From an uncultured Allofournierella sp. (GTDB lineage Bacteria; Bacillota; Clostridia; Oscillospirales; Ruminococcaceae): a DNA stretch of 54,956 bases. Of the stretch, positions 30,863 to 49,163 are shown piece after piece (within the stretch, counting starts at the first letter, position 1; the number at the start of each line of letters is the position of its first letter). A program made the translations under genes and the position numbers. Where the stretch lies: assembly GCA_944382775.1 (NCBI GenBank), contig CALWNI010000009.1, forward strand, positions 1-54,956. The letters run 5' to 3'. The notes under the pieces were generated by a model. It made no database searches. It was not told the DNA's origin and was given only the letters and a program-made list of their open reading frames with translations.

Positions 30863-31819
30863 TCAGCGTTCTTCACGGAAGTAGTTATTGCCCAAGAATG
30901 CAGGGATATGAGCACCCTTGTTGCCGCGCATGCTGGTAACAATCAGAACCAGTGCAGTGATTAAGAATGGCAACATATCAAAAAATGCATCCGGCATACC
31001 CACCATAAAGCCAACCTTGTAGTACTTCAATACACGCAAAGCACCAAATACAAAGCTGCCCAAAATTGCCATGTGAGGTTTCCATGCTGCAAAAATAACC
31101 AAAGCAACCGCAATCCAGCCCAAACCGTTTACACTGTTGGAAATCCATACACCGCCGTTGATAATCATACCGCAGTATGCACCGCCAATGCCGCAAATAC
31201 CGCCGCCCAATAAAATATTAAAATACTTCCATTTGGTAACAGGAATGGATGCCGCATCGGCTGCACCGGGGTTTTCACCAATGGCCTGTACATTCAAACC
31301 GGTTTTGGTGCGGTACAGATAAAATCCGGTAAGGGCAGCCACCAGAATCCCCAGATAAACAAAGGGGTTATAACTAAACAGCAACGGCCCCACCACAGGC
31401 AGATCGCTCAAGCCCGGAATTTGAATGCTTCTCATTTGCTGGGTTACCTGTGCAGGCAGTTTTAAGGTGCCGCTTTCTGCTTTTTCAATCATGTATACGC
31501 CAATAAAGTTGGAAATACCCACACCAAAAATGGTCATAGTTAAGCCGGCAACATTCTGGTTTGCCATAAAGGTAACGGTCAGCACTGCATAAATCAGTGC
31601 CGCCAGCATGCCTGCCAAAAAGGCGCACAACAAAGCCACCATAAAGTTATCGCTGAGATAACCACCCATAAAGCCGGCACAGGCACCAATTGCCATCATG
31701 CCCTCTACACCCAGATTCAAATGGCCTACTTTTTCGTTTAAAATTTCACCCACGGTACCAAACAACAACGGAGTACCGGCGCCGATTGCTGCCACCAAAA
31801 ACTTAATAAACAAATCCAT
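30863..31819 (-). CDS. Nucleoside ABC transporter permease
   Basis: This 318-residue membrane protein with about eight or nine helices belongs to the BPD_transp_2/NupQ type. GTVGEILNEKVGHLNLGVEGMMAIGA and AIGENPGAADAASIPVTKWK are characteristic. It pairs with the other permease as the pore for nucleosides imported by the BMP system. It overlaps the upstream permease stop by one base (TAATG) and ends the operon. Confidence 0.92.
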   Translation of the reverse strand: MDLFIKFLVAAIGAGTPLLFGTVGEILNEKVGHLNLGVEGMMAIGACAGFMGGYLSDNFMVALLCAFLAGMLAALIYAVLTVTFMANQNVAGLTMTIFGVGISNFIGVYMIEKAESGTLKLPAQVTQQMRSIQIPGLSDLPVVGPLLFSYNPFVYLGILVAALTGFYLYRTKTGLNVQAIGENPGAADAASIPVTKWKYFNILLGGGICGIGGAYCGMIINGGVWISNSVNGLGWIAVALVIFAAWKPHMAILGSFVFGALRVLKYYKVGFMVGMPDAFFDMLPFLITALVLIVTSMRGNKGAHIPAFLGNNYFREER

Positions 31820-32916
31820 TATCGGCTCACTCCTTTCTTGCTGCGGCCCACAAAGCTATACCGAACAAAAAACTCACTGCCCAAAATAAAGAACAGAATA
31901 ATGCCCTGCAATACATCGGCACAGTCAGAAGACAGTCCAAAGGTAGACTGTACCACACTGGAACCCTTTTCCAATACACCAAACAGGAAGGATACCACTA
32001 AAATCATGGCCGGATTTAACTGACAAAGCCATGCCACAATAATTGCGGTAAAGCCAACACCGCCGGCAACACCCATAGACAAGGTCATATCACTGCCCGA
32101 TACCTGACAAGCACCTGCCAAACCGGCAATTGCCCCGGAAATAAACATGGTGCGCAAGATTACCTTTTTCACATCAATGCCTGCATAACGTGCGGTGTCT
32201 TGGCTTTCGCCTACCACGCTGATTTCATAGCCCTGTTTGCTCTTTTTCAGATAAATCCAAACAAATGCAACCAAAACCAGCATGATAATCCAACCAAAAT
32301 GCACACCGAAAACCTTATCCAGTGCCACATTCTTATCAAAGCGTGCAATTTTTGAAAATCCGTTTGCAGCAGGGTCACGCCAAGGGCCGGCCTGTAAATA
32401 CGACACCAGGTGCAACGCAATGTAGTTGAGCATCAAGGTCAGCAAAGTTTCGTTGGTTCCCCACTTCACCTTAAAGAATGCTGCTAAAACGCCCCACAAA
32501 CCGCCGCCGATGCAGCCTGCAAGCAGCATTACAATGACCAAAACCCAGTGGTTCCAGTTGGGGAAATTCAGGGCAAAAAAGCTGGCAAACACAGCACCCA
32601 TAATTAGCTGTCCTTCGCCGCCCACGTTCCAAAATTTCATCTTAAATGCTAGGGTTACACCCAGCGCACAGATGCAAAGCGGAATGGCAAACTTAATGGT
32701 TGCCTGAATTGCCATCTGGCTGCGGAACGAACCCTCCAGAATGGTGCCATAAACCGCAATGGGATTTTGACCAATGGCCAAAATAAACAAACCGCCTGCT
32801 ACAATGCTAAGCAACACTGCCACCAAACGCAATACAACGGTTTCTTTGGTGCTGCGCTCTGCATGCTTTACCACATGAAACAGAGGCTCACGGGTATTTT
32901 TTACAGTAGGATTCAT
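31819..32916 (-). CDS. Nucleoside ABC transporter permease
   Basis: This 365-residue permease of the NupP type has GGEGQLIMGAVFASFFALNFP, WGTNETLLTLMLNYIALHLV and SVVGESQDTARYAGIDVKK, with about eight or nine membrane segments. It overlaps the ATPase stop by four bases (ATGA). It partners with the second permease in a heterodimeric channel. Confidence 0.92.
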   Translation of the reverse strand: MNPTVKNTREPLFHVVKHAERSTKETVVLRLVAVLLSIVAGGLFILAIGQNPIAVYGTILEGSFRSQMAIQATIKFAIPLCICALGVTLAFKMKFWNVGGEGQLIMGAVFASFFALNFPNWNHWVLVIVMLLAGCIGGGLWGVLAAFFKVKWGTNETLLTLMLNYIALHLVSYLQAGPWRDPAANGFSKIARFDKNVALDKVFGVHFGWIIMLVLVAFVWIYLKKSKQGYEISVVGESQDTARYAGIDVKKVILRTMFISGAIAGLAGACQVSGSDMTLSMGVAGGVGFTAIIVAWLCQLNPAMILVVSFLFGVLEKGSSVVQSTFGLSSDCADVLQGIILFFILGSEFFVRYSFVGRSKKGVSR

Positions 32917-34451
32917 GCCTCGTCTGCCTCCTTTTTCTTCTCCTCTTCGGTCATTTCACCGGTCATCATCAAGCCAATTTGTTCTTTTGTTACGGTTTTG
33001 GCATCTACCACACCGGTGATTTTGCCGTGGCACAATACCAGAATACGGTCGCATAATTCCAGCAATACGTCCAAATCCTCACCAATAAACATAACCGCAA
33101 CGCCTTTTTGTTTTTGCTGATTCAGTAAGTCATAAATCACATAGCTGGAATTGATGTCCAAACCACGCACCGGATAAGCAGTGATTAGCAAATTGGGGCA
33201 AGATTCAATTTCACGCCCCAGCAAAACCTTTTGTACGTTACCACCGCTCATCAAGCGAACCGGCGCTTCAATGCTTGAGGTAACAATGCCCAGCTTCTCC
33301 ACCAATTTTTTAGAAAGCTCTTTCGCCGGGGCACGGTCCACAAAGGGGCCTTTGCCTTTGCGATAACTTTTCAGCAGCATATTGTCCGGCATACCCATGC
33401 TTGCCACCAAGCCCATGCCTAAGCGGTCTTCCGGCACAAAACTCATGGAAATTCCCAAATCAATGATTTGTTCGGGGCTTTTGCCCAAGATATTCTCTTT
33501 TTTATACAGAATTGCGCCTTCCTGTGCCGGCAGCAAGCCCGCAATGGTTTCGCACAGTTCTTTTTGTCCGCTGCCTGCAATGCCGGCAACGCCCAAAATC
33601 TCGCCGGAACGAATCTGGAAACTTACATCATCCAGACCTTTGCTTCCGTCGGGCTTGGCAACCGTCAGGTTAACCACCTTTAAAATGGTATGAACATCTT
33701 TGGGTTCGGGCCGTTCAATGGACAAGCTTACCGCATGACCCACCATAAGCTCGGTCAATTTTGCCGCGTCTACGCCTGCGGTTTCTACACTGCCCACACT
33801 TTTGCCCTTGCGCAAAATGGTAACGCGGTCACTAATGGAAAGCACTTCGTTCAACTTATGGGTAATGATGATAATAGCGCATCCTTTTGCTTTCATCTGG
33901 CGCAAAATTGCAAACAGCTTTTCGGTTTCTTGCGGGGTTAATACCGCAGTAGGTTCGTCCAAAATCAGAATTTTAGCACCCCGATACAACACCTTTAAAA
34001 TTTCTACGGTCTGCTTTTCCGAAACGCTCATTTCATACACCGGCTTTTCGGGATCAATGTCCAAACCATAGTTTTCGCACAACTGGGTTACCTGCTGTTT
34101 TAGTGCCTTTTTGCCGGGCAATTTGCCCGGTGTGCCCAAAACAATGTTTTCCATTGCAGTAAATACTTCCACCAGCTTAAAATGCTGATGAATCATACCG
34201 ATGCCCAAATTTTGTGCATCAATGGGAGAGCTAATTGAAACCGGCTGTCCACTTACATAAATTTGACCTTTATCCGGATGATAAATACCCGAAATCATGT
34301 TCATCAGCGTGGTTTTACCGCTTCCGTTCTCACCCAGCAATGCTAAAATTTCACCGTATTGAACATCCAGCTCAATGCCGTCGTTTGCTACCACACTGCC
34401 AAAGGTTTTTGTAATGCCGCTGCACCGAATTGCACATTTCTGCTTGTCCAT
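32913..34451 (-). CDS. Nucleoside ABC transporter ATPase, two nucleotide-binding domains
   Basis: This 512-residue tandem ATPase has a first Walker A GENGSGKT and an MSVSEKQ signature with LILDEPTAVL. The second site is degenerate, as usual for the RbsA/NupO type: GIAGSGQKEL with an MSGGNVQK signature and AYPVRGLD. It energises nucleoside uptake. The start at 34451 (MDKQKC) is chosen because GGGAGG is 6 bases before it. The longer frame starts upstream of that site. Confidence 0.92.
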   Translation of the reverse strand: MDKQKCAIRCSGITKTFGSVVANDGIELDVQYGEILALLGENGSGKTTLMNMISGIYHPDKGQIYVSGQPVSISSPIDAQNLGIGMIHQHFKLVEVFTAMENIVLGTPGKLPGKKALKQQVTQLCENYGLDIDPEKPVYEMSVSEKQTVEILKVLYRGAKILILDEPTAVLTPQETEKLFAILRQMKAKGCAIIIITHKLNEVLSISDRVTILRKGKSVGSVETAGVDAAKLTELMVGHAVSLSIERPEPKDVHTILKVVNLTVAKPDGSKGLDDVSFQIRSGEILGVAGIAGSGQKELCETIAGLLPAQEGAILYKKENILGKSPEQIIDLGISMSFVPEDRLGMGLVASMGMPDNMLLKSYRKGKGPFVDRAPAKELSKKLVEKLGIVTSSIEAPVRLMSGGNVQKVLLGREIESCPNLLITAYPVRGLDINSSYVIYDLLNQQKQKGVAVMFIGEDLDVLLELCDRILVLCHGKITGVVDAKTVTKEQIGLMMTGEMTEEEKKKEADEA

Positions 34452-34490
34452 GGCTTCCTCCCATACACTCATATCTTCTCTTTCAGTGGC

Positions 34491-34520
34491 AAAAGGGCGG
34501 TCAAATCTGGCCGCCCTTTT
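34491..34520 (-). terminator. Intercistronic attenuator after bmpA
   Basis: A 10-bp stem (34491-34500 with 34511-34520) is followed by TTTTG on the minus strand. It lies between the binding-protein gene and the ATPase gene. Such partial terminators usually make the binding protein more abundant than the rest of the transporter. Confidence 0.75.
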
Positions 34521-34544
34521 GTTGTTTGCATCTGTTTTATCTAA

Positions 34545-35702
34545 TTATGCTTGCTCACGCACATTTTCCACATACCAGTTGCAGCTGCCGTAATCGGCAC
34601 CTTCCAGTGTGTGGGTATTGCCCTGGTTGTCGGTAATTTCGGTTTTACCGTCAAAAACATCCCAAGTGCCAGCTACCATCTGAGCCTTTACTTCTTCGAT
34701 TTTTTCAGCAGTGCCTTCTGCAACCAAATTGCTGTTCAGGTCGGCCAATACAACCAAACCATCGGCCATATCGCCAAAGTAGTTGTCTACCTTTTGACCT
34801 GCAACCCAGGTGCCATCAATTACATTTTGAACTGCCTGGGTGTAGTAAATGCTCCAATCCCACATTACACTGGTCAAGGTAGCATCGGGTGCATCTTTGG
34901 TCATATCGCTGTTGTAGCCAATGCCCCAAACATTATGCTCTTCGGCTGCCAACTGAGGGCCGGAGGTATCGCAGTGCTGTGCCAAAACGTCACAACCGGA
35001 AGCAATCAGTGCCTCTGCTGCCTGCTTTTCGCCTTCGGGATCAAACCAGCTGTTGGTTACCTTTACATAAACCTCAGCATCGGGATTTACGCTGGCAACA
35101 CCCATTGCAAATGCGTTGATACCGCTGGTAACTTCGCCGTTTTCTTTGCCCATGGCTGCAACGTAACCAATCTTGTTGCTCTGGGTTTTCAAACCGGCAG
35201 CAATACCGCTCAGATAACGTGCCTGGTAAATACGTCCAAAATAGTTGTTAAAGTTGGTACCGTTGGATTTATAACCGGTGCCATGGCTAAAAATAACATC
35301 GGGATACTCTTCCGCCAAAGCCTCACAGGTATCCATATAACCCCAAGAGGTGGCAAAGATAATGTTGCAACCTTCCTCGATCAGCTCACTCATGGCATTT
35401 TCCACAGCGGCAGCATCGGTATCGGATACATTGATTTTTTCAATCAGCTGGTCGCTGTTTAAACCGATGTTCTTCATCATGCCTTGGATGCCCTGCTCAT
35501 GGGTGTAGCTGTAACCGGTACCTTCCGCAGGGTCTGACAAGTGTACAACACCTACTTTAATTTCTTCTTTTGCAATGCCTGCGCCGGTTGCCGAAGCTGT
35601 TCCGGAAGTGGTGTTGCCACTTGTGCTGCCGGTAGACCCGCCACACGCAACCATGCTAAATGCCAAAATTGCCGCCAAAGCTGCACTCAGAATCTTTTTC
35701 AT
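34545..35702 (-). CDS. BMP-family nucleoside-binding lipoprotein
   Basis: This 385-residue solute-binding protein begins with a lipoprotein signal. The lipobox MVAC is at Cys20 and is followed by a Gly/Ser/Thr linker to about residue 45. The mature part matches the Bmp/PnrA family (KVGVVHLSDPAEGTGYSYTHEQG and GYMDTCEALAEEYPDVIFSHGTG). It delivers purine or pyrimidine nucleosides to the permeases and is tethered to the membrane. It is the first gene of the operon, with a structured leader. Confidence 0.93.
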   Translation of the reverse strand: MKKILSAALAAILAFSMVACGGSTGSTSGNTTSGTASATGAGIAKEEIKVGVVHLSDPAEGTGYSYTHEQGIQGMMKNIGLNSDQLIEKINVSDTDAAAVENAMSELIEEGCNIIFATSWGYMDTCEALAEEYPDVIFSHGTGYKSNGTNFNNYFGRIYQARYLSGIAAGLKTQSNKIGYVAAMGKENGEVTSGINAFAMGVASVNPDAEVYVKVTNSWFDPEGEKQAAEALIASGCDVLAQHCDTSGPQLAAEEHNVWGIGYNSDMTKDAPDATLTSVMWDWSIYYTQAVQNVIDGTWVAGQKVDNYFGDMADGLVVLADLNSNLVAEGTAEKIEEVKAQMVAGTWDVFDGKTEITDNQGNTHTLEGADYGSCNWYVENVREQA

Positions 35703-38221: not shown

Positions 38222-41200
38222 TTACAGGGTAGAAATGTCAATCAGTTCTACATCGTCCAAGCTTGCGCCGCTGCGCAGGGTTTCCACCAATACCTTAGCG
38301 GTATCGATTGCGGTCAGACAGGGAACGCTCAGTTCAACTGCCTTACGACGCATACGCACGCTGTCCAGATCGGGGTCACGGCCATGGTCAGAGGTAGAGA
38401 TTACATAATCCACATTGCCGCTCTCCAACAGGTTCAGAATATTGGGTTCCTGCTCGCTGATGCGATGGATGGTGTTACATGCAATCATGTTGCTGTTCAA
38501 TACCTTAGCGGTGCCACTGGTACCATACAGCTTGTAACCCATGGATTTCAGCTGCCATGCGGTATCCAGAATCTCCAGCTTGTCCGCATTCTTAACGGTA
38601 ATCAAACAGCAGCTGTCCTTGCCGGGATTCTTAAACTTATAGCCTGCACCTACCAGACCCTTGAGCAGTGCCTCGCTAAAGGTACGGGCAATGCCCAGAA
38701 CCTCGCCGGTGCTCTTCATCTCAGGTCCAAGCTGGGTGTCTACGCCGTGCAGCTTTTCAAAGCTGAATACGGGTACCTTAACGGCAACATAGGGTGCATC
38801 GGGACGAATGCCGGTGCCCCACTCCATATCTTTCAGCTTTTCGCCCAACATACAACGAACTGCTAGTTCAACCATGGGTACGCCGGTTACCTTGCTGATG
38901 TAAGGTACGGTACGGCTGGAACGGGGGTTTACCTCGATTACATATACCTGATTGTTGTATACAACGTACTGGATGTTTACCAGACCAACAACCTTCAGTT
39001 CCTTTGCCAGACGGCCGGTGTACTCTACCAACATCTGCTTAATGCGGGGGGACAAGGTGCGGGGAGGATATACACTGATGGAGTCACCGGAGTGAATACC
39101 GGCACGCTCAACGTGCTCCATCATACCGGGAATCAGGTAGTCCTCACCGTCGCAGATAGCGTCAACTTCGCACTCGGTACCCATCAGGTACTTGTCCACC
39201 AGAACAGGGTTTTCCATGTCGGTGTTCTGTGCAATGATGGCCATGTACTCGGTTACATCGTCGGGACCGTAAGCAATGATCATGTTCTGACCGCCCAAAA
39301 CGTAGCTGGGACGCAGCAGAACGGGATAGCCCAGCTCGCTGCCGGCCTTCAATGCTTCCTCGGTGGTGAATACGGTGTATCCCTTCGGACGGGGAATGCC
39401 GCAACGCTCCAGCAGCTCGTCAAAACGCTCGCGGTCTTCTGCTTCGTCAATGGCGTCGGCAGGAGTACCCAGCAGTTTTACGCCCAGCTTGGTCAGGTGC
39501 TTGGTCAGCTTAATAGCAGTCTGACCACCGAACTGTACCACACAAGCCCAGGGCTTTTCGGTTTCCAGAATGTTTTCTACGCTTTCGGGGTCCAGCGGAT
39601 CGAAGTACAAACGGTCGCCGGTGTCAAAGTCGGTAGAAACGGTTTCGGGGTTGTTGTTGGCAATGATAGCCTCGTAGCCAAACTTCTTCAGAGTCCATAC
39701 ACAGTGAACGCTGCAGTAGTCGAACTCGATGCCCTGACCGATACGGATGGGACCGCTGCCGAATACCAGAACCTTCTTCTTATCGGTGGGATGCTCTTCG
39801 ATAAACTGAGCAGCCTCGTTTTCTTCGTCAAAGCTGGAGTAGAAGTAAGGAGTGCGCGCTGCAAACTCAGCTGCACAGGTATCTACCATCTTAAAGCCTG
39901 CGCGCAGACGAGCAGGTACATCACAGCCGCTCAAACGCTCGATTGCCTTATCGGTAAAGCCCTGACGCTTTGCCAGCTTGTACAGTTCCATGCTGGGCTC
40001 TTCGGCAGCCAAACGCTTTTCGGTTTCTGCCAGCTTGCCCAGTTTGTTCAGGAACCAGTGGTCAATCTTGGTGATGCTGTAAATTTCGTCAAAGTCAAAG
40101 CCGCGCTTAATGGCCTCGAATACAACAAAGCTACGGTCAGAATCGCATACATGCAGCTTCTGACGGATTTCCTCATCGCTGCACTCTGCCAGCTGGGGCA
40201 GATCCATGGTATCCAGACCCAACTCGATAGAGCGAACTGCCTTCATCAAAGCTTCCTCAAAGCTCTGACCGATGGCCATAACCTCACCGGTAGCCATCAT
40301 CTGAGTGCCCAGATCCTTCTTTGCATAAACAAACTTATCAAAGGGCCACTTGGGGAACTTAACCACACAGTAGTCCAGTGCAGGCTCAAAGCAAGCACAG
40401 GTCTGACCGGTAATGTCGTTGGTGATTTCGTCCAGGCTGTAACCAATTGCAATTTTGGTTGCAACCTTTGCAATGGGATAACCGGTTGCCTTGGAAGCCA
40501 AAGCAGAAGAACGGCTAACACGGGGGTTTACCTCGATAACGGCATATTCAAAGCTATCGGGCTTTAATGCAAACTGACAGTTACAGCCGCCCTCGATGCC
40601 CAGCTCGCTGATGATGCGCAGTGCAGAGGTACGCAGCATCTGATACTCCTTGTCAGACAGGGTCTGGCTGGGAGCAACAACGATGGAGTCGCCGGTATGT
40701 ACGCCAACGGGGTCAAAGTTCTCCATGTTACATACGGTAATTACATTGCCCTTACCGTCGCGCATTACCTCGTATTCGATTTCTTTCCAGCCGGCAATGC
40801 ACTTTTCAACCAGAATCTGATGAATGGGAGAAAGACGCAAGCCGTTGGTTGCGATTTCACGCAGCTGAGCCTCGTCGGCACAGATACCGCCACCGGTGCC
40901 GCCCATGGTGAAGGCAGGGCGAACAATAACGGGATATTCAATCTTAGCAGCAAAAGCCAGAGCATCGTCCAGGTTCTCTACAACCAGGCTGGGGATGCAG
41001 GGCTCGCCCAGTTTTTCCATGGTGTCTTTGAACAGCTGGCGGTCCTCGGCACGGTCGATGGTGTCGGGCTTACAACCCAGCAAACGAACACCCTCAGCCT
41101 CCAGGAAGCCTTCGCGTGCCAGAGTCATGGCCATGTTCAGACCGGTCTGGCCGCCCAGGTTGGGCAGAATGGAGTCGGGCTTTTCTTTTTGAATGATGCG

Positions 41201-41425
41201 CTTGATGACCTCAGGAGTCATGGGCTCAACATAAACACGGTCGGCAATGTTGGGGTCGGTCATAATGGTAGCGGGGTTGGAGTTTACCAGAACAACTTCA
41301 ATGCCCTCTGCTTTCAGCGCACGGCAAGCCTGTGTGCCGGAATAGTCAAACTCAGCAGCCTGACCGATGATGATGGGACCAGAGCCAATCACCAGAACTT
41401 TTTTAATGGAATTATCCTTTGGCAT
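38222..41425 (-). CDS. carB: Carbamoyl-phosphate synthase large subunit
   Basis: The full-length 1067-residue subunit has two ATP-grasp halves: N-terminal GSGPIIIGQAAEFDYSGTQA and central FGSGPIRIGQGIEFDYCSVH. An allosteric MGS-like domain is at the C terminus. It makes carbamoyl phosphate for pyrimidine (and arginine) synthesis using glutamine nitrogen from CarA. It is the last gene of the operon, 3 bases after carA. Confidence 0.97.
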   Translation of the reverse strand: MPKDNSIKKVLVIGSGPIIIGQAAEFDYSGTQACRALKAEGIEVVLVNSNPATIMTDPNIADRVYVEPMTPEVIKRIIQKEKPDSILPNLGGQTGLNMAMTLAREGFLEAEGVRLLGCKPDTIDRAEDRQLFKDTMEKLGEPCIPSLVVENLDDALAFAAKIEYPVIVRPAFTMGGTGGGICADEAQLREIATNGLRLSPIHQILVEKCIAGWKEIEYEVMRDGKGNVITVCNMENFDPVGVHTGDSIVVAPSQTLSDKEYQMLRTSALRIISELGIEGGCNCQFALKPDSFEYAVIEVNPRVSRSSALASKATGYPIAKVATKIAIGYSLDEITNDITGQTCACFEPALDYCVVKFPKWPFDKFVYAKKDLGTQMMATGEVMAIGQSFEEALMKAVRSIELGLDTMDLPQLAECSDEEIRQKLHVCDSDRSFVVFEAIKRGFDFDEIYSITKIDHWFLNKLGKLAETEKRLAAEEPSMELYKLAKRQGFTDKAIERLSGCDVPARLRAGFKMVDTCAAEFAARTPYFYSSFDEENEAAQFIEEHPTDKKKVLVFGSGPIRIGQGIEFDYCSVHCVWTLKKFGYEAIIANNNPETVSTDFDTGDRLYFDPLDPESVENILETEKPWACVVQFGGQTAIKLTKHLTKLGVKLLGTPADAIDEAEDRERFDELLERCGIPRPKGYTVFTTEEALKAGSELGYPVLLRPSYVLGGQNMIIAYGPDDVTEYMAIIAQNTDMENPVLVDKYLMGTECEVDAICDGEDYLIPGMMEHVERAGIHSGDSISVYPPRTLSPRIKQMLVEYTGRLAKELKVVGLVNIQYVVYNNQVYVIEVNPRSSRTVPYISKVTGVPMVELAVRCMLGEKLKDMEWGTGIRPDAPYVAVKVPVFSFEKLHGVDTQLGPEMKSTGEVLGIARTFSEALLKGLVGAGYKFKNPGKDSCCLITVKNADKLEILDTAWQLKSMGYKLYGTSGTAKVLNSNMIACNTIHRISEQEPNILNLLESGNVDYVISTSDHGRDPDLDSVRMRRKAVELSVPCLTAIDTAKVLVETLRSGASLDDVELIDISTL

Positions 41426-41428
41426 GGC

Positions 41429-42520
41429 TTAGCAGCCTCCCTTCATCATATCTACAAATTCATCAAACAGATACTCGGTATCCTTGGGGCCACCGCAAGC
41501 TTCGGGGTGGAACTGTACGGTAAAGCACTTCATATTGTTGTAACGAATGCCCTCAACGGTGCCGTCGTTGGCGTTCACATGGCTTACCTGACCAATGCTC
41601 TGGTCCAGGCTCTCACCTACTACTGCATAGCCGTGGTTCTGGCTGGTGATGTAGGTACGGCCGTGTGCCAGGTCGGTAACAGGCTGGTTTACACCACGAT
41701 GACCATACTTCAGCTTTTGGGTCTGTGCGCCCATAGCCAACGCCATCAGCTGATGGCCCAAGCAGATGCCGAAAATGGGCAAGCCCATGGTGGCAATCTC
41801 TTTCAGATTTTCGATAATCTGTACGTTTTCCGCCGGGTCGCCAGGGCCGTTGGACAGCATGATGCCATCCAGATTCATCTCTTTCAGCTGGCTTGCAGTG
41901 GTGGTTGCAGGTACTACAGTTACCTTGCAGTCACGGGCTACCAGGTTGCGCTCGATGTTGTTTTTGCAGCCAAAATCAAACAGAGCAACGTGGTATTTGC
42001 CGTTCTCGTTCAGTACACTGGCGGTTTCGCAGGTTACGCTTGCAACCGCTTCGGTTACGTTGTATGCGCGGATGCTCTGCATCAGTGCTTCATCTGCCAA
42101 AGCTTCCTCGGCAGTTGCATATTCGGTGGTCAAAGCGCCGTTCATAACACCGCTTTCACGCAGCAAACGAACCAGGCTGCGGGTGTCAACGCCTGCCATG
42201 CCAATGATACCCTGCTCTTTCAGGTAGGTATCCAGTGTTTTTTTGCAGCGGAAGTTGCTGGGTGCATCGCACAACTCACGCACAATATAGCCAAATGCCC
42301 AGATGCGACCAGACTCGGCGTCCTCGCCGTTAATGCCGTAGTTGCCAATCAAAGGATAGCTTTGTGTAATAATCTGACCGTAGTAGCTGGGGTCGGTCAG
42401 GGTTTCTTCGTAACCCACCATACCGGTGTTAAATACGACTTCGCCTACACGGGTACCGGTTGCACCAAAGTGCTGGCCTTCTAAAACAGTACCGTTGGCC
42501 AAAACCAAAAATGTTTTCAA
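41429..42520 (-). CDS. carA: Carbamoyl-phosphate synthase small subunit
   Basis: This subunit of about 363 residues has a class I glutamine amidotransferase domain. GICLGHQLMALAMG carries the catalytic Cys, and VQFHPEACGG carries His and Glu. It supplies ammonia to CarB. A TTG start at 42520 (MKTFLVLANG) fits the family N terminus and has GAGGG 8 bases away. A GTG at 42526 is the alternative, with the ribosome site too close. A strong hairpin precedes the gene. Confidence 0.95.
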   Translation of the reverse strand: MKTFLVLANGTVLEGQHFGATGTRVGEVVFNTGMVGYEETLTDPSYYGQIITQSYPLIGNYGINGEDAESGRIWAFGYIVRELCDAPSNFRCKKTLDTYLKEQGIIGMAGVDTRSLVRLLRESGVMNGALTTEYATAEEALADEALMQSIRAYNVTEAVASVTCETASVLNENGKYHVALFDFGCKNNIERNLVARDCKVTVVPATTTASQLKEMNLDGIMLSNGPGDPAENVQIIENLKEIATMGLPIFGICLGHQLMALAMGAQTQKLKYGHRGVNQPVTDLAHGRTYITSQNHGYAVVGESLDQSIGQVSHVNANDGTVEGIRYNNMKCFTVQFHPEACGGPKDTEYLFDEFVDMMKGGC

Positions 42521-42580
42521 GGTCACATCCCTCTCATTCCATTAAAATATCCTTGTATCATTTCCATTTTTTACACGCAG

Positions 42581-42633: not shown

Positions 42634-43227
42634 TTACAGGGTTTGCTTTGCCTGCTCTTTCATCTTGCGGCTGCCCAAGTGTACCAAAGGCAGTTTGCCT
42701 TCTTTACAAATGGGGCACTCCTCGGGCAGGTAGTTGGGCAGATCCAACTTAGCAGCACTTGCCAAAATCTCGATGGGGCTGGGAACTTCTGCCTTGGTGC
42801 GGTCTACTACACAGGCAATGCCCAGGCAGATTCCGCCGGCTTCTTCAATTACACGCTTGGTCTCCAGGCTGGAGATACCGGTGGTTACAACGTCCTCGGC
42901 AATGATGCACTTTTCGCCGGGCTTAATTGCAAAACGCTTTAAGGTCATTACGTTGTCTACACGCTCGGTAAAGATTGCACGCTTGCCCAGCTGACGGCCC
43001 AGCTCGTAAGCGTAAACAATGCCGCCCATAGCAGGGCCAACAATTACGTCAATGTCCAGATCCTTCAGCTGCTCTGCAACATTTGCCATAACCTTGGCGC
43101 ACTGGTCGGGATACTGCTGCAAGTAAGCCATCTGGCAGTATGCGCTGGAATGGCGGCCGCTGCTCAGCAAAAAGTGACCTTCCAAAAAGGCTTCGCATTC
43201 TTTTAAGATTTCAATGGTGTTGTTCAT
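42634..43227 (-). CDS. pyrE: Orotate phosphoribosyltransferase
   Basis: This 197-residue enzyme has the PRPP-binding loop CIIAEDVVTTG and FLLSSGRHSSAYCQM at the substrate end. It converts orotate and PRPP to OMP. The C terminus has a CPIC pair found in some members. The start at 43227 has GAGGAG 8 bases away. An upstream in-frame ATG is not supported. Confidence 0.94.
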   Translation of the reverse strand: MNNTIEILKECEAFLEGHFLLSSGRHSSAYCQMAYLQQYPDQCAKVMANVAEQLKDLDIDVIVGPAMGGIVYAYELGRQLGKRAIFTERVDNVMTLKRFAIKPGEKCIIAEDVVTTGISSLETKRVIEEAGGICLGIACVVDRTKAEVPSPIEILASAAKLDLPNYLPEECPICKEGKLPLVHLGSRKMKEQAKQTL

Positions 43228-43275
43228 CTTTTTCGCTCCTCGTTTCAGCAATATGTAATGTTACTATTTCCCGGG

Positions 43276-44190
43276 TTATACGCGTGCACAACCACGAATT
43301 TCATCCAATGTTTTTACACCGTGTGCCTGCATCCATGCCGCAATCTCGTCGGTAACGGTTTCACAGGCCTTGGGATTCATAAAGTTTGCGGTGCCCACCT
43401 GTACCGCAGTAGCACCGGCCATGATAAACTCCAGTGCATCGTTGCCGGTGGCAATGCCACCCAGACCAATAACAGGAACATCCACAACGCCGCATACCTG
43501 ATATACCATGCGCAGCGCAATGGGCTTAATGGCAGGGCCGGACAATCCGGCAAAGATGTTGTTAAACACCGGGCGGCGTTTTTCCAAATCAATGGCGCAG
43601 GCTTGGAAGGTGTTAACCAGGCTCAGTGCATCTGCACCGGCCTCCACGCAAGCCACTGCCATGCGGCAGATATCCTCAGCTTGGGGGCTCAATTTTACAA
43701 TCAGAGGCTTTTTGCAAACCGCACGCACACGGCTTACCACCTCTTTTGCGCTCTCGGCTTGAATGCCGTAAGCAATGCCGCCCTGCTTTACGTTGGGGCA
43801 GCTGATATTCAGCTCCACAAAATCCACTGCGGTGTCATTCAGCAGCTCTGCACCCTTTTCATAATCCTCGATGCAGCCACCGCCCAAGTTTGCCAGAATT
43901 GCAGTGCCCAAGGTTTCCATAATAGGCAGCTCGTGGTCGATAAAGTGCTGCACGCCGGGGTTCTGCAAGCCGATGGAGTTAATCAAACCGCTGGGAGTTT
44001 CCAGCAGACGCTCGCCCTCATTGCCGTACTTGGGAATCAAGGTAATGCCCTTGCTGGACACACCGCCCAATTTTTTCAGGTCAACAATATCGGAGTATTC
44101 GGCACCAAATCCAAAAGTACCGGATGCACCAATAACCGGGCCGGCCAATTCCTTGCCCAGCAGATTTACCTTCAACGATACTTCGCTCAT
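43276..44190 (-). CDS. pyrD: Dihydroorotate dehydrogenase, catalytic subunit (PyrDB type)
   Basis: This 304-residue FMN-dependent enzyme is of class 1B. The N terminus carries LLGKELAGPVIGASGTFGFG. NISCPNVKQGG carries a substrate loop with the catalytic Cys. PVIGLGGIATGNDALE closes the FMN site. It oxidises dihydroorotate to orotate and passes electrons through PyrK to NAD+. The start overlaps the pyrK stop by four bases (ATGA). Confidence 0.95.
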   Translation of the reverse strand: MSEVSLKVNLLGKELAGPVIGASGTFGFGAEYSDIVDLKKLGGVSSKGITLIPKYGNEGERLLETPSGLINSIGLQNPGVQHFIDHELPIMETLGTAILANLGGGCIEDYEKGAELLNDTAVDFVELNISCPNVKQGGIAYGIQAESAKEVVSRVRAVCKKPLIVKLSPQAEDICRMAVACVEAGADALSLVNTFQACAIDLEKRRPVFNNIFAGLSGPAIKPIALRMVYQVCGVVDVPVIGLGGIATGNDALEFIMAGATAVQVGTANFMNPKACETVTDEIAAWMQAHGVKTLDEIRGCARV

Positions 44191-44954
44191 GCGCCAAATA
44201 CCTCCTTGGAATCAAATACCGGGCCTTCTTTGCAAACGCATTTGCCGCCGGTTGTGGTTTTGCAGGTGCAGCCCAAGCAAGCACCAATGCCACAAGCCAT
44301 TTTGCGCTCCAAGCTTACAATGCAGGTTACGCCCTTTTCTTCGCACAGCTTTGCTACCGCTTTCATCATGGGTTCGGGGCCGCAGCACAGAACCAAGTCG
44401 TATTCTTCGGGGTTCAGCAGCTGGGTTACAAAACCATGGAAGCCATAACGACCGCTGTCGGTAGCCAGCTGAACCTTGCCGCACAAGGTTGCAAACTTTT
44501 CCACGCCGTAAGGCTCATCGCGGAAACCGCAGAAGTAGTCCGCCTTTGTACCGCCGGCATTCAGCTCTTTTGCCAGCTGATACAAGGGGGCAGTACCAAT
44601 GCCACCGCCCACCAAGGCAACGCGCTTGCCCAGTGCGGATTCCACATCAAAGCCGTTACCGCTGGGGCCCACCAAGCTCAGGGTGTCGCCCGGCTCCAGT
44701 GCTGCCAGCTTTTCGGTGCCTTTGCCGCGTACTTCGTACAAGAACTGAATGGTTCCCATGGCAGCATCGTAGCTATGAACGCTGATGGGACGGCTCAGCA
44801 CAGGGGCCACATCGGCAGGCCAACAGCGCAGCATGAAAAACTGTCCTGCTTTGGGTGCCTTATCACGGCGAGGCCAGCTGGTGGTCATCAGGCGAATGGT
44901 ATCGGTTAGAGCCAGATGCTCCAATACTTTTACATCACAGGCGGTCGCATGCAT
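44187..44954 (-). CDS. pyrK: Dihydroorotate dehydrogenase electron-transfer subunit
   Basis: This 255-residue FAD and 2Fe-2S protein has flavin-binding LSRPISVHSY and a C-terminal cysteine cluster, ACGIGACLGCTC followed by GGKCVC. It transfers electrons from PyrD to NAD+. The start at 44954 lies inside pyrF, with GGAGG 9 bases before it, so the genes are coupled with a 20-base overlap. Confidence 0.94.
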   Translation of the reverse strand: MHATACDVKVLEHLALTDTIRLMTTSWPRRDKAPKAGQFFMLRCWPADVAPVLSRPISVHSYDAAMGTIQFLYEVRGKGTEKLAALEPGDTLSLVGPSGNGFDVESALGKRVALVGGGIGTAPLYQLAKELNAGGTKADYFCGFRDEPYGVEKFATLCGKVQLATDSGRYGFHGFVTQLLNPEEYDLVLCCGPEPMMKAVAKLCEEKGVTCIVSLERKMACGIGACLGCTCKTTTGGKCVCKEGPVFDSKEVFGA

Positions 44955-45801
44955 GTTTGATGGCCTCCTTCATGTTTACACACTCGTTGTATGCAGCTTC
45001 GGCAAATGCAACACCGGGCTGCTTTTTGTAAGCCAGCAGAATGCTGCGGCTGGAGTTTACAACGCCGCCGTTGCCAGCGGTCAGGTACTGGGCAATGTCC
45101 TCAGCGGTGCCGCCCTGTGCGCCGTAGCCGGGAATCAGGAAGAAGCTATCCTTGTAGCGGGCGCGAATTTCAGCAGCCTCTTCAATGTGAGTGCCGCCGA
45201 TTACCAGGCCCAGGCTGGAGTAGCCATGCTCACCCATGCAGGTTTTGCCCAGCTCGTTCAGCTTATCGCCAACCATATCGTATACATGGCGGCCGTCTGC
45301 CAGTTTTTCGTATTCAAAATCCTTTGCACCGGGGTTGGAAGTACGAACCAGTACAAACAGACCCTTGCCCTGCTTTTCTACAAACGGCATGTAGGGCTTG
45401 ATGGAGTCCAGACCCATGTAAGGTGCCAAGGTGATGTAGTCGGCTTCAAAATCGCCGCTGAAATGAGCCTGTGCATACATCTCGGCAGTTTTTGCAATGT
45501 CGCCGCGCTTAATGTCTGCAATCACGGGCACACCGGCAGCCTTGATGTAATCCAGAGTCTTTTTGTAAGCCAGCATGCCATCCAGACCCAGGCTTTCGTA
45601 GTAAGCAATCTGCACCTTAAAGCAACCGGCCACATTCTTGGTTGCGTCCACAATGGCCTGGTTGAACCGCACAATATTCTCACCGGCAGTCAATTCGCTT
45701 TTTGCAAAGCCTTCGGGCAGGTAAGAAATATCGGTATCGAGGCCTACGCATACGGGGCCACGGCTTGCAACAGCTTCGTACAGTTTGTCCATGTTGGTCA
45801 T
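44935..45801 (-). CDS. pyrF: Orotidine 5'-phosphate decarboxylase
   Basis: This 288-residue type 2 PyrF has GLDTDISYLPEG and the catalytic VIADIKRGDIAKTA. It decarboxylates OMP to UMP, the last step of the pathway. The length fits the longer subfamily. There is a 77-base gap to pyrC. Confidence 0.94.
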   Translation of the reverse strand: MTNMDKLYEAVASRGPVCVGLDTDISYLPEGFAKSELTAGENIVRFNQAIVDATKNVAGCFKVQIAYYESLGLDGMLAYKKTLDYIKAAGVPVIADIKRGDIAKTAEMYAQAHFSGDFEADYITLAPYMGLDSIKPYMPFVEKQGKGLFVLVRTSNPGAKDFEYEKLADGRHVYDMVGDKLNELGKTCMGEHGYSSLGLVIGGTHIEEAAEIRARYKDSFFLIPGYGAQGGTAEDIAQYLTAGNGGVVNSSRSILLAYKKQPGVAFAEAAYNECVNMKEAIKHACDRL

Positions 45802-45878: not shown

Positions 45879-47051
45879 TTATCGCTGATAGGTAATTTTT
45901 CCGCCGCGGATGGTCAAATCCACACGGCCGTAAAGGGTTACACCATCAAAGGGTGTGTTATGACTCTTAGAATGCATGGTATTCTTGTCCACCACATAGG
46001 GGGTATCCAAATCCACCAGAACCAAATCTGCATCGGCACCTACCTGAATTGCGCCTTTGCCCTCCAGCCCCAAAATCGCTGCGGGGAAGCGGCTCATCAG
46101 TGCCTCCAGATAGTACAGGTCCAGTCCGCGCTCACGGCACAGCTTTGTGTAGCAAACACCAAAGGCAGTTTCCAAACCAATCATACCGGCGGCACCTTTG
46201 GCCTTATCCTCATCGCTGTGGGGGGCATGGTCGGTGGCAATGGCATCCACTGTGCCGTTTTGAATGGCAGCAATCAAAGCATCCACATCTTCCTGCTTGC
46301 GGATGGGCGGATTTACACGATAATCCAAATCAGCAAACCAGATGTGATGCGGTGTTACTTCACAGGTAACGGGCACGCCCTTGCGCTTTGCATCGGCAAT
46401 GGCTGCCACTGCCTCTTTGGTGCTTACATGGCACAGATGCAGTCGGGTACCGTAGTACTCGCTCAGATGCAGGTTGCGAACGGTTTCCAAATTCTCTGCC
46501 AAACGATAATCCCACTTGGAGATTTCCATGTCCTCGGCGTGGCTCATCAAAACCAGATCGCGCTGGGCGCAAATGGCAAAAGCCTTTGCCATAACCTCAT
46601 TGTTCTGCACGCCCTTGCCGTCCTCGGTAATAAAGCGCAGGTCTTCCGGTAATGTTTTCAGATGGTCCAAAGTATGTCCATCAAAATTTTCGGTAATGGA
46701 AACGGTTTGCATGGCACCGCAAATTCCGATTTCCTCGGCCTGCTGCATTACGGCATGGGCCTGCTCTGCACTGGAGCAAACGGGCTTGGTATTAGGCATC
46801 AAGGTTACATAGGTATATCCGCCTGCTGCGGCTGCTGCGCTACCGCTTGCCACATCCTCTTTGTACTCAAATCCGGGGGTTCTCCAGTGACAATGCAGAT
46901 CAATGAATCCGGGCAAAACGGTACGACCTTGTGCATCAATTACCTCTTCGCCATGGGCAGGCATATTTTGCAGCATTCCTACAATTTTACCCTTTTGCAG
47001 CAGTAGGTCCACCATAGTTCCGTCTGACAGTTTTGCGTTTTTAATCAGCAT
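45879..47051 (-). CDS. pyrC: Dihydroorotase
   Basis: This 390-residue metal-dependent amidohydrolase has DLHCHWRTPGFEYKED (metal ligands), MPNTKP, HLCHVSTKEAV and IATDHAPHSDEDK. It closes carbamoyl aspartate to dihydroorotate. It is the first structural gene after the regulatory leader. Aspartate carbamoyltransferase (pyrB) is not in this window. Confidence 0.95.
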   Translation of the reverse strand: MLIKNAKLSDGTMVDLLLQKGKIVGMLQNMPAHGEEVIDAQGRTVLPGFIDLHCHWRTPGFEYKEDVASGSAAAAAGGYTYVTLMPNTKPVCSSAEQAHAVMQQAEEIGICGAMQTVSITENFDGHTLDHLKTLPEDLRFITEDGKGVQNNEVMAKAFAICAQRDLVLMSHAEDMEISKWDYRLAENLETVRNLHLSEYYGTRLHLCHVSTKEAVAAIADAKRKGVPVTCEVTPHHIWFADLDYRVNPPIRKQEDVDALIAAIQNGTVDAIATDHAPHSDEDKAKGAAGMIGLETAFGVCYTKLCRERGLDLYYLEALMSRFPAAILGLEGKGAIQVGADADLVLVDLDTPYVVDKNTMHSKSHNTPFDGVTLYGRVDLTIRGGKITYQR

Positions 47052-47078: not shown

Positions 47079-47112
47079 AAAAAAAAATGACTCTTCCGCA
47101 ATAGGAAAAGTC
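47079..47112 (-). terminator. Attenuator terminator before pyrC
   Basis: On the minus strand GACTTTTCC (47104-47112) pairs with GGAAGAGTC (47089-47097), with a six-base loop and one G-U pair. Nine T follow (47079-47087). The leader peptide stop overlaps its left arm, so a ribosome at that stop would block hairpin formation. Confidence 0.85.
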
Positions 47113-47194
47113 AAACAATAATCCCTTGTAAAAATGGAATAGGAAAGAAACCCGACTGAACGGGGAAATGCTGTTTGCTGCACTGGTTCATCAT
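47111..47194 (-). CDS. 27-residue leader peptide of the pyr operon
   Basis: This small frame begins ATGATG at 47194 with a strong GAGGAGG ribosome site and ends in TGA at 47113-47111. The encoded peptide starts MMNQCSKQHFPVQSG. Its 3' half is rich in T (TTC TTT, TTT TTA, ATT ATT). The stop codon is in the left arm of the terminator hairpin. This is the design of E. coli pyrBI, where RNA polymerase pausing at U tracts lets the ribosome catch up when UTP is low and prevents termination. Translation itself is inferred. Confidence 0.75.
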   Translation of the reverse strand: MMNQCSKQHFPVQSGFFPIPFLQGIIV

Positions 47195-47235
47195 GGTTTT
47201 TCCTCCTCTTCCGTTTCTTTTTGTTAAATCGTCTG

Positions 47236-47264
47236 ATTTTATCATAGTTCGACTCTATTGTCAA
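47236..47264 (-). promoter_or_regulatory. Promoter of the pyr operon
   Basis: On the minus strand TTGACA (47259-47264) and TAAAAT (47236-47241) are 17 bases apart, with TGA just before the -10 (extended). The start would be near 47229, 35 bases before the leader ATG. Confidence 0.88.
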
Positions 47265-47296
47265 TATATCCAAGTAAAAATATTGTGATTTTGCAA

Positions 47297-47335
47297 AAAA
47301 ATATGCTGCACCCGTAATGGATACAGCATATTTTT
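47297..47335 (-). terminator. Terminator of the ATP synthase operon
   Basis: A 12-bp stem (47297-47308 with 47324-47335), followed on the minus strand by a T run, lies 6 bases past the atpC stop. Confidence 0.85.
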
Positions 47336-47340
47336 ATCTG

Positions 47341-49163
<1,823 letters not shown>

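Follow-up and report, generated by a model that had tools for sequence, protein, structure and literature searches.

A short U-rich leader frame ending at an intrinsic terminator ahead of pyrimidine genes in Clostridia: a putative UTP-responsive attenuator of the pyrBI type

The pyrimidine operon of an uncultured Allofournierella species (Ruminococcaceae) is preceded by a short U-rich leader frame that ends at an intrinsic terminator, and this leader-terminator arrangement is real and widespread among related genomes. The leader quite probably functions as a transcription attenuator that is ribosome-coupled and responds to UTP, in the manner of E. coli pyrBI, the mechanism of which is described in PMC10135430 and PMC5021804. 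The window considered here is the whole 54,956-nt stretch of DNA that was analyzed; the leader lies on its minus strand (47264-47079), between the gene for the ATP synthase epsilon subunit (47341-47748) and pyrC (start at 47051). The positions of the features concerned are given in Table 1.

Table 1. Leader features and downstream genes in the window, in the order of transcription.
Feature	Position	Strand	Remarks
-35 box TTGACA	47259..47264	-	17-bp spacer to the -10 box
-10 box TAAAAT, TG directly before	47236..47241	-	with the -35 box, 11/12 consensus bases
Expected transcription start	~47229	-	inferred from promoter spacing
Shine-Dalgarno sequence GAGGAGG of the leader frame	47202..47208	-
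Leader frame, 27 codons MMNQCSKQHFPVQSGFFPIPFLQGIIV and TGA	47111..47194	-	U-rich second half
Intrinsic terminator hairpin TGACTTTTCC-TATTGC-GGAAGAGTCA	47088..47113	-	10 pairs, loop of 6
Terminator T run, nine T	47079..47087	-
pyrC, dihydroorotase, first gene of the operon	45879..47051	-	TIGR00857, 324.7 bits (cut-off 279.05)
pyrF, orotidine-5'-phosphate decarboxylase	44935..45801	-
pyrK, dihydroorotate dehydrogenase electron transfer subunit	44187..44954	-
pyrD, dihydroorotate dehydrogenase	43276..44190	-
pyrE, orotate phosphoribosyltransferase	42634..43251	-
carA, carbamoyl phosphate synthase small subunit	41429..42526	-
carB, carbamoyl phosphate synthase large subunit	38222..41425	-

The preliminary description of this DNA, made from the sequence of the window, had claimed a strong promoter, a GAGGAGG-led frame of 27 codons with T-rich codons in its 3' half, and a TGA lying in the left arm of a terminator with nine T. 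All of these elements were confirmed: the two promoter boxes match the consensus at 11 of 12 bases, the Shine-Dalgarno sequence and frame occupy 47208-47111 on the minus strand, the 45 nt preceding the stem contain 47% U, and the TGA of the leader frame (47113-47111) constitutes the first three bases of the terminator stem. The frame opens with two successive ATG codons (47194 and 47191, minus strand), and a longer in-frame ORF, starting at ATG 47245 in a mechanical list of open reading frames, overlaps the -10 box. Site counts in a scan of this single sequence are not clearly above chance, either for promoter-like sites (4 in a 2-kb region, for a chance mean of 2.7) or for terminator-like sites (2, versus 2.3 by chance), and the case for the leader therefore rests on comparison: it is conservation, in 7/7 genomes of the genus and in 54/57 of the wider group, that raises the arrangement above chance. 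Another hairpin followed by a T run, with the appearance of a terminator, is found at 47295-47332 (minus strand) just after atpC, and sets the ATP synthase operon apart from the pyr promoter.

Within the genus of the window, the leader is present ahead of pyrC in all seven genomes searched, with frames of 26 to 29 codons and a TGA at the base of the stem in every case (7/7), and with peptides that differ, strongly so in G002. In these seven genomes (L001-L007), a further T run, shorter than the first (AAGCTTTTTT or a similar sequence), is found between the attenuator and the Shine-Dalgarno sequence of pyrC. A search of 396 genomes of the family identified the close type of pyrC (E of 1e-115 or better) in 57 of them, belonging to 19 of 126 genera, and 54 of these 57 genomes (17/19 genera) have a leader and a terminator before the first pyr gene, which is pyrC in 41 genomes and pyrB in 13; the attenuator hairpin was picked within a limited distance of this first gene. 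The genomes outside the 54 are G179, in which the contig is cut inside pyrB, and, by judgement, G121 and G173 (genera g116 and g124), which have no recognizable attenuator, their best hairpins being unlike it. Of the 54 attenuator genomes, 51 have a promoter-like pair (score of at least 9, from 12 bases and a small spacing bonus). In a permissive test that accepts any ATG, GTG or TTG lying 40-150 nt upstream as a start, 52/54 genomes have a frame that stops between -10 and +15 nt of the base of the stem (52/56 once G121 and G173 are included). The stop lies at -1 or 0 in 45 of these, and across all 52 genomes TGA (35) is used more often than TAA (13) or TAG (4). The frames of genus g48 end inside the hairpin in four of five genomes, and the two other frames (that of G083 and that of G093, read by hand) run through the hairpin and end beyond it, as in E. 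coli pyrL.

A controlled version of this test, in which starts were chosen by the strength of the Shine-Dalgarno sequence and blind to the frame, yielded a start in 48 of the 57 genomes; eight of the other nine lack a Shine-Dalgarno sequence of 4 or more and the ninth (G179) lacks a terminator. The starts picked in this way reach a stop at the terminator in 41/48 genomes, versus 7.3/48 expected from a random register and shuffled bases, and the other two frames end there in only 8 of 96 cases. With one genome per genus (16 genera, 300 draws), the median number of matches was 11 for about 2.4 expected, giving a median P of 5e-7 and a P of 8e-5 in the worst of the 300 draws; a shuffle that keeps the register gave a weaker result (10/16 genera versus 5.25 expected, P 8e-4). 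The C-termini of the peptides share no common motif across genera, as judged by eye, which speaks against a stalling peptide. The preliminary description had proposed that the leader be aligned across related genomes, a leader frame that proved not to be conserved being grounds for refutation, and this comparison did not refute it: in 17 genera the frame, the position of its stop, the abundance of U in its 3' half and the terminator are all conserved, and the peptide is not.

The U-richness of the region is also general. In averages over genera for the 54 genomes, U accounts for only 20-21% of the bases at 120-75 nt upstream of the stem (20% at 120-90 nt), for 32% at 45-30 nt, for 56% over the 15 nt immediately before the stem and for 47% over the 10 nt with which the stem itself begins. 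Within the frames picked by their Shine-Dalgarno sequence and ending at the terminator, U rises from 25% in the first half to 41% in the second half, and third-position U from 23% to 43%, both rises being seen in 9 of 11 genera. When the last 45 nt are counted in the same way, E. coli pyrL has 31% U and the window 47%; a value of 49% U is given for the pyrL stretch in PMC10135430, where it is counted otherwise.

The bases of the terminator are strongly conserved in many genera, beyond what pairing requires, and such conservation is more than the pyrBI logic would fully require. A strict terminator pattern, too strict for the genus of the window itself, occurs once in each of 10 of 148 genomes of the family, always at the attenuator of pyrC or pyrB, with no control matches, and in 2 of 394 genomes of an order-wide sample, both from the same family. 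The window's own genome has another terminator-like match, which was dropped; it lies among frames that we take to be genes of aromatic amino-acid synthesis. The T run is directly followed by GCC in 34/54 attenuators (12/17 genera, that of the window not being among them), and GCC follows 6/97, 4/58 and 3/70 runs of at least seven T elsewhere in DNA sampled from three genomes.

In the proposed mechanism, the strong promoter would start the transcript, and a ribosome would load at the good Shine-Dalgarno sequence and translate the short U-rich frame, up to a stop codon placed at the base of the intrinsic terminator (inside or beyond it in some related genomes). When UTP is plentiful, the polymerase would outrun the ribosome, allowing the hairpin to form, and the pyr operon would be off. 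When UTP is scarce, the polymerase would pause over the U-rich stretch and the CUUUU of the left arm, and the ribosome would catch up and, once at the stop codon, cover the left arm, such that the hairpin would be blocked and pyrC-F-K-D-E-carAB would be made; the basis for coverage of the left arm from the stop codon is the size of the ribosome footprint. We infer pausing, coupling and the role of UTP as the signal from anatomy and conservation, which support the ribosome-coupled reading already put forward in the preliminary description. Transcription in B. subtilis has been reported to be mostly uncoupled from translation (PMC7858274), and this is no contradiction, because the off state at high UTP needs precisely such uncoupled running; the on state, by contrast, would need the ribosome to catch the polymerase. 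The median spacing between stop codon and terminator, considered as a possible signature of coupling, is 21.5 nt in G026 (n=22), 13 nt in G223 (n=30, including 11 spacings of at most 5 nt), 13 nt in the PyrR-bearing G122 (n=33), 8.5 nt in the window (n=8) and 20 nt in E. coli (only n=7), a comparison of small numbers in which 150 kb of E. coli DNA provided 7 terminators and 15 loci from Bacilli provided one.

Folding of 51 leaders gave a mean terminator probability by genus of 0.93 (0.58-0.99) and, among these 51 genomes, no consistent antiterminator, the probability that the left arm pairs with RNA upstream of it varying from 0.02 to 0.86 according to the genus. The leader of the window folds better with its terminator than shuffled sequences do (z -2.3), and for the part of the leader before the stem, too, folding is somewhat more favorable than in shuffles (z -1.5 as a mean over genera; -3.6 in g9), suggesting that upstream structure in the leader RNA may also matter. 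The minimum-energy fold for the window has the Shine-Dalgarno region paired with the second, U-rich half of the frame. A pairing between CAGACGA, located after the -10 box, and UUGUUUG at the base of the stem, with compensating changes apparent by eye in G002 and G006, was considered for the genus of the window and dropped, because the promoter spacing places most of the CAGACGA bases upstream of the likely transcription start.

The same genes are controlled in many Firmicutes by PyrR, and the preliminary description had stated that neither a pyrR gene nor a PyrR loop was to be seen. This was borne out: the window's own genome (84% complete) has no PyrR above the cut-off, its three weak matches reaching at most 25.5 bits versus 138, and an Rfam search of the whole window at the gathering score returned only two tRNAs and no PyrR RNA element; at lax settings, the leader of the window gave only matches far below the gathering scores. 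That attenuation of the PyrR type was simply missed is barely conceivable. PyrR is indeed present in 28 of 37 members of the family with a different pyrC (6/7 and 22/30, in genomes drawn from the higher-scoring rows of a search rather than at random), which is the point in favor of an oversight, but at an E of 1e-20 or better it was found in none of the 57 genomes with the close pyrC type (27 + 30, some of them incomplete), and the same search was positive in 6 of 14 control genomes. The lack of PyrR does not by itself predict the leader, as seven of the eight other PyrR-less genomes of the family have no terminator in the 320 nt before pyrC.

Three other explanations deserve consideration. 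Coupled attenuation might sense translation itself, through a charged tRNA (tRNA-Phe, for instance), a ribosome-targeting drug or general growth rate, rather than UTP, in the way of amino-acid leaders or of bmrB in B. subtilis. Ribosome-mediated attenuation has been documented for bmrCD of B. subtilis (PMC4191407), and no residue is more frequent than phenylalanine in the second halves of the peptides (120, versus 49 in the first halves, with related genomes counted singly). We nevertheless consider such a signal unlikely, given that the seven genes behind the leader of the window are all genes of pyrimidine synthesis, that the rise in third-position U in 9/11 genera indicates that the nucleotide U is favored, and not only codons for phenylalanine, and that the consistent alternative antiterminator fold required by amino-acid attenuators was not seen. 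Slightly less probable still is an RNA-binding protein that would read the conserved hairpin CUUUUCC/GGAAAAG, the frame being incidental or serving to protect the RNA. The conservation of the primary sequence of the hairpin across many genera and the GCC found after the T run in 34/54 attenuators are consistent with a protein of this kind, but the frame and the position of its stop are kept beyond chance, frames that do not stop at the base of the stem mostly run into or through the hairpin, and a U-rich left arm would be expected anyway with UTP-dependent pausing. Anaerotruncus sp. G3 and Parvimonas parva, furthermore, keep the plan with other hairpins. It seems very improbable that the terminator is an ordinary one with constitutive partial readthrough and that any regulation occurs through reiterative or start-site-dependent initiation at GAUUUAA: an initial GATTT is found in the genus of the window and in two others, with A or G followed by TTT or TTTT in some more, and UTP-dependent slippage at such starts has been described for E. 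coli (PMC6245113), but about half of the attenuator genera (g9, g13, g31, g52, g54, g57, g81, g110 and others) have no U tract there, whereas the arrangement of frame and terminator is general.

The attenuator proposed here, with UTP as its signal, resembles the pyrBI leader (pyrL) of enteric bacteria in having a promoter, a Shine-Dalgarno sequence and a short frame that reaches an intrinsic terminator directly before pyrimidine genes, with a similar distance from start to stem (88 nt in E. coli pyrL, 81 nt in the window); the T8 of E. coli pyrL is followed by GCCC, as many of the related leaders, outside the genus of the window, have GCC at this point (34/54). It differs in occurring in Bacillota, ahead of an operon in the order pyrC-F-K-D-E-carAB or, in 13/54 genomes, one beginning with pyrB, and in its hairpin sequence and greater U content just upstream; the stop codon lies beyond the terminator in E. 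coli pyrL and at the base of the stem in most of the species considered here. Five of the leader peptides have no Pfam match at E values up to 10, and that of the window has none in NCBIfam; peptides this short are hard to match, and the likeness to enteric pyrL appears to be one of plan and not of sequence. The attenuation exerted by PyrR in Firmicutes concerns the same genes and likewise acts on transcription ahead of them, but no pyrR or PyrR RNA was found here, and the proposed sensor would be the ribosome together with the polymerase rather than a protein. The bmrB leader of bmrCD in B. subtilis provides an example of a Firmicute leader frame whose translation controls downstream transcription; unlike the leaders described here, it responds to antibiotics that inhibit protein synthesis, precedes other genes and has its stem-loops within the leader frame (PMC4191407). 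The leader peptides of hisS and hisZ in bacilli are another case of leader-peptide attenuation in Firmicutes that replaces a different RNA system, with histidine codons as the sensor (PMC2965389; Naville and Gautheret, 2010). According to the same paper, leader peptides outside the Proteobacteria and Actinobacteria had not been demonstrated before, with the exception of ermC; the word UTP does not occur in its main text, which contains three words in pyr-, including PyrR and its reference.

In a tree of pyrC (43 rows), the attenuator clade (support 96/89) consists of 20 rows labelled as having the attenuator and one row that is unclear. It groups with Clostridium, Tissierella, Parvimonas and the PyrR-less rows G056 and L086, and is separated from those members of its own family that carry PyrR. 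Three changes in the attenuator label are required on this tree, at least two of them by well-supported branches, and the grouping suggests that the whole operon, not the leader alone, has been exchanged. PyrR is present in genomes of Clostridium, Tissierella and Tissierellales (L081, L082, L084, L085), and had no match in the named-contig genomes L083, L086, L112 and L134. As judged by eye, L083 (Parvimonas parva) has, ahead of pyrB, a Shine-Dalgarno-led frame of 64 codons (46% U) that ends inside a different terminator, and L112 (Anaerotruncus sp. G3) has a Shine-Dalgarno-led U-rich frame ending 9 nt before a different terminator; no leader was seen in the PyrR-less L086 and L134.

Among the matches listed from the open-access literature, considered by title and start of abstract, there was no description of a pyrBI-type leader in Bacillota. 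We lean, by a small degree, towards the view that an entire clade of Clostridia has lost PyrR and regulates its pyrimidine synthesis through a UTP-timed race of the pyrBI type between polymerase and ribosome. The origin of this plan would be separate from that of the enteric one, with perhaps two or more independent origins within Bacillota itself (in the main clade, Parvimonas and Anaerotruncus). If so, regulated transcription-translation coupling would be in everyday use in a phylum whose model species is reported to be mostly uncoupled, and a nucleotide sensor of a purely kinetic kind would have taken the place of a protein regulator in a large group of this phylum. Such control would offer a way of regulating pyrimidine synthesis in genomes in which PyrR was not found, and more than 50 natural leaders would be available for asking whether encounters between polymerase and ribosome are regulated in Bacillota.

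Some observations concern transcription starts and the surroundings of the operon. The likely first transcribed bases in the window (47224-47230, minus strand) are GATTTAA, common to the genus, and other likely starts in related genomes are GAAATTTAT, GAAAAAATTTTGG or AGAAAAAATTTG in some genera. The pyrB gene of the genus of the window is located elsewhere and has no leader or terminator ahead of it, by eye, in the seven genomes (7/7). Attenuator-less promoters of pyrB (G000, G002, G056 (L080) and L086) have starts of the AATTTG or AATTTA type, like E. coli pyrBI, and all of these starts are candidates for UTP-dependent slippage at initiation. A set of genes on the strand of the operon (30863-35702 in the window), starting about 2.5 kb past carB, encodes a lipoprotein, an ABC ATPase and two permeases, which presumably resemble a nucleoside importer of the basic-membrane-protein type.
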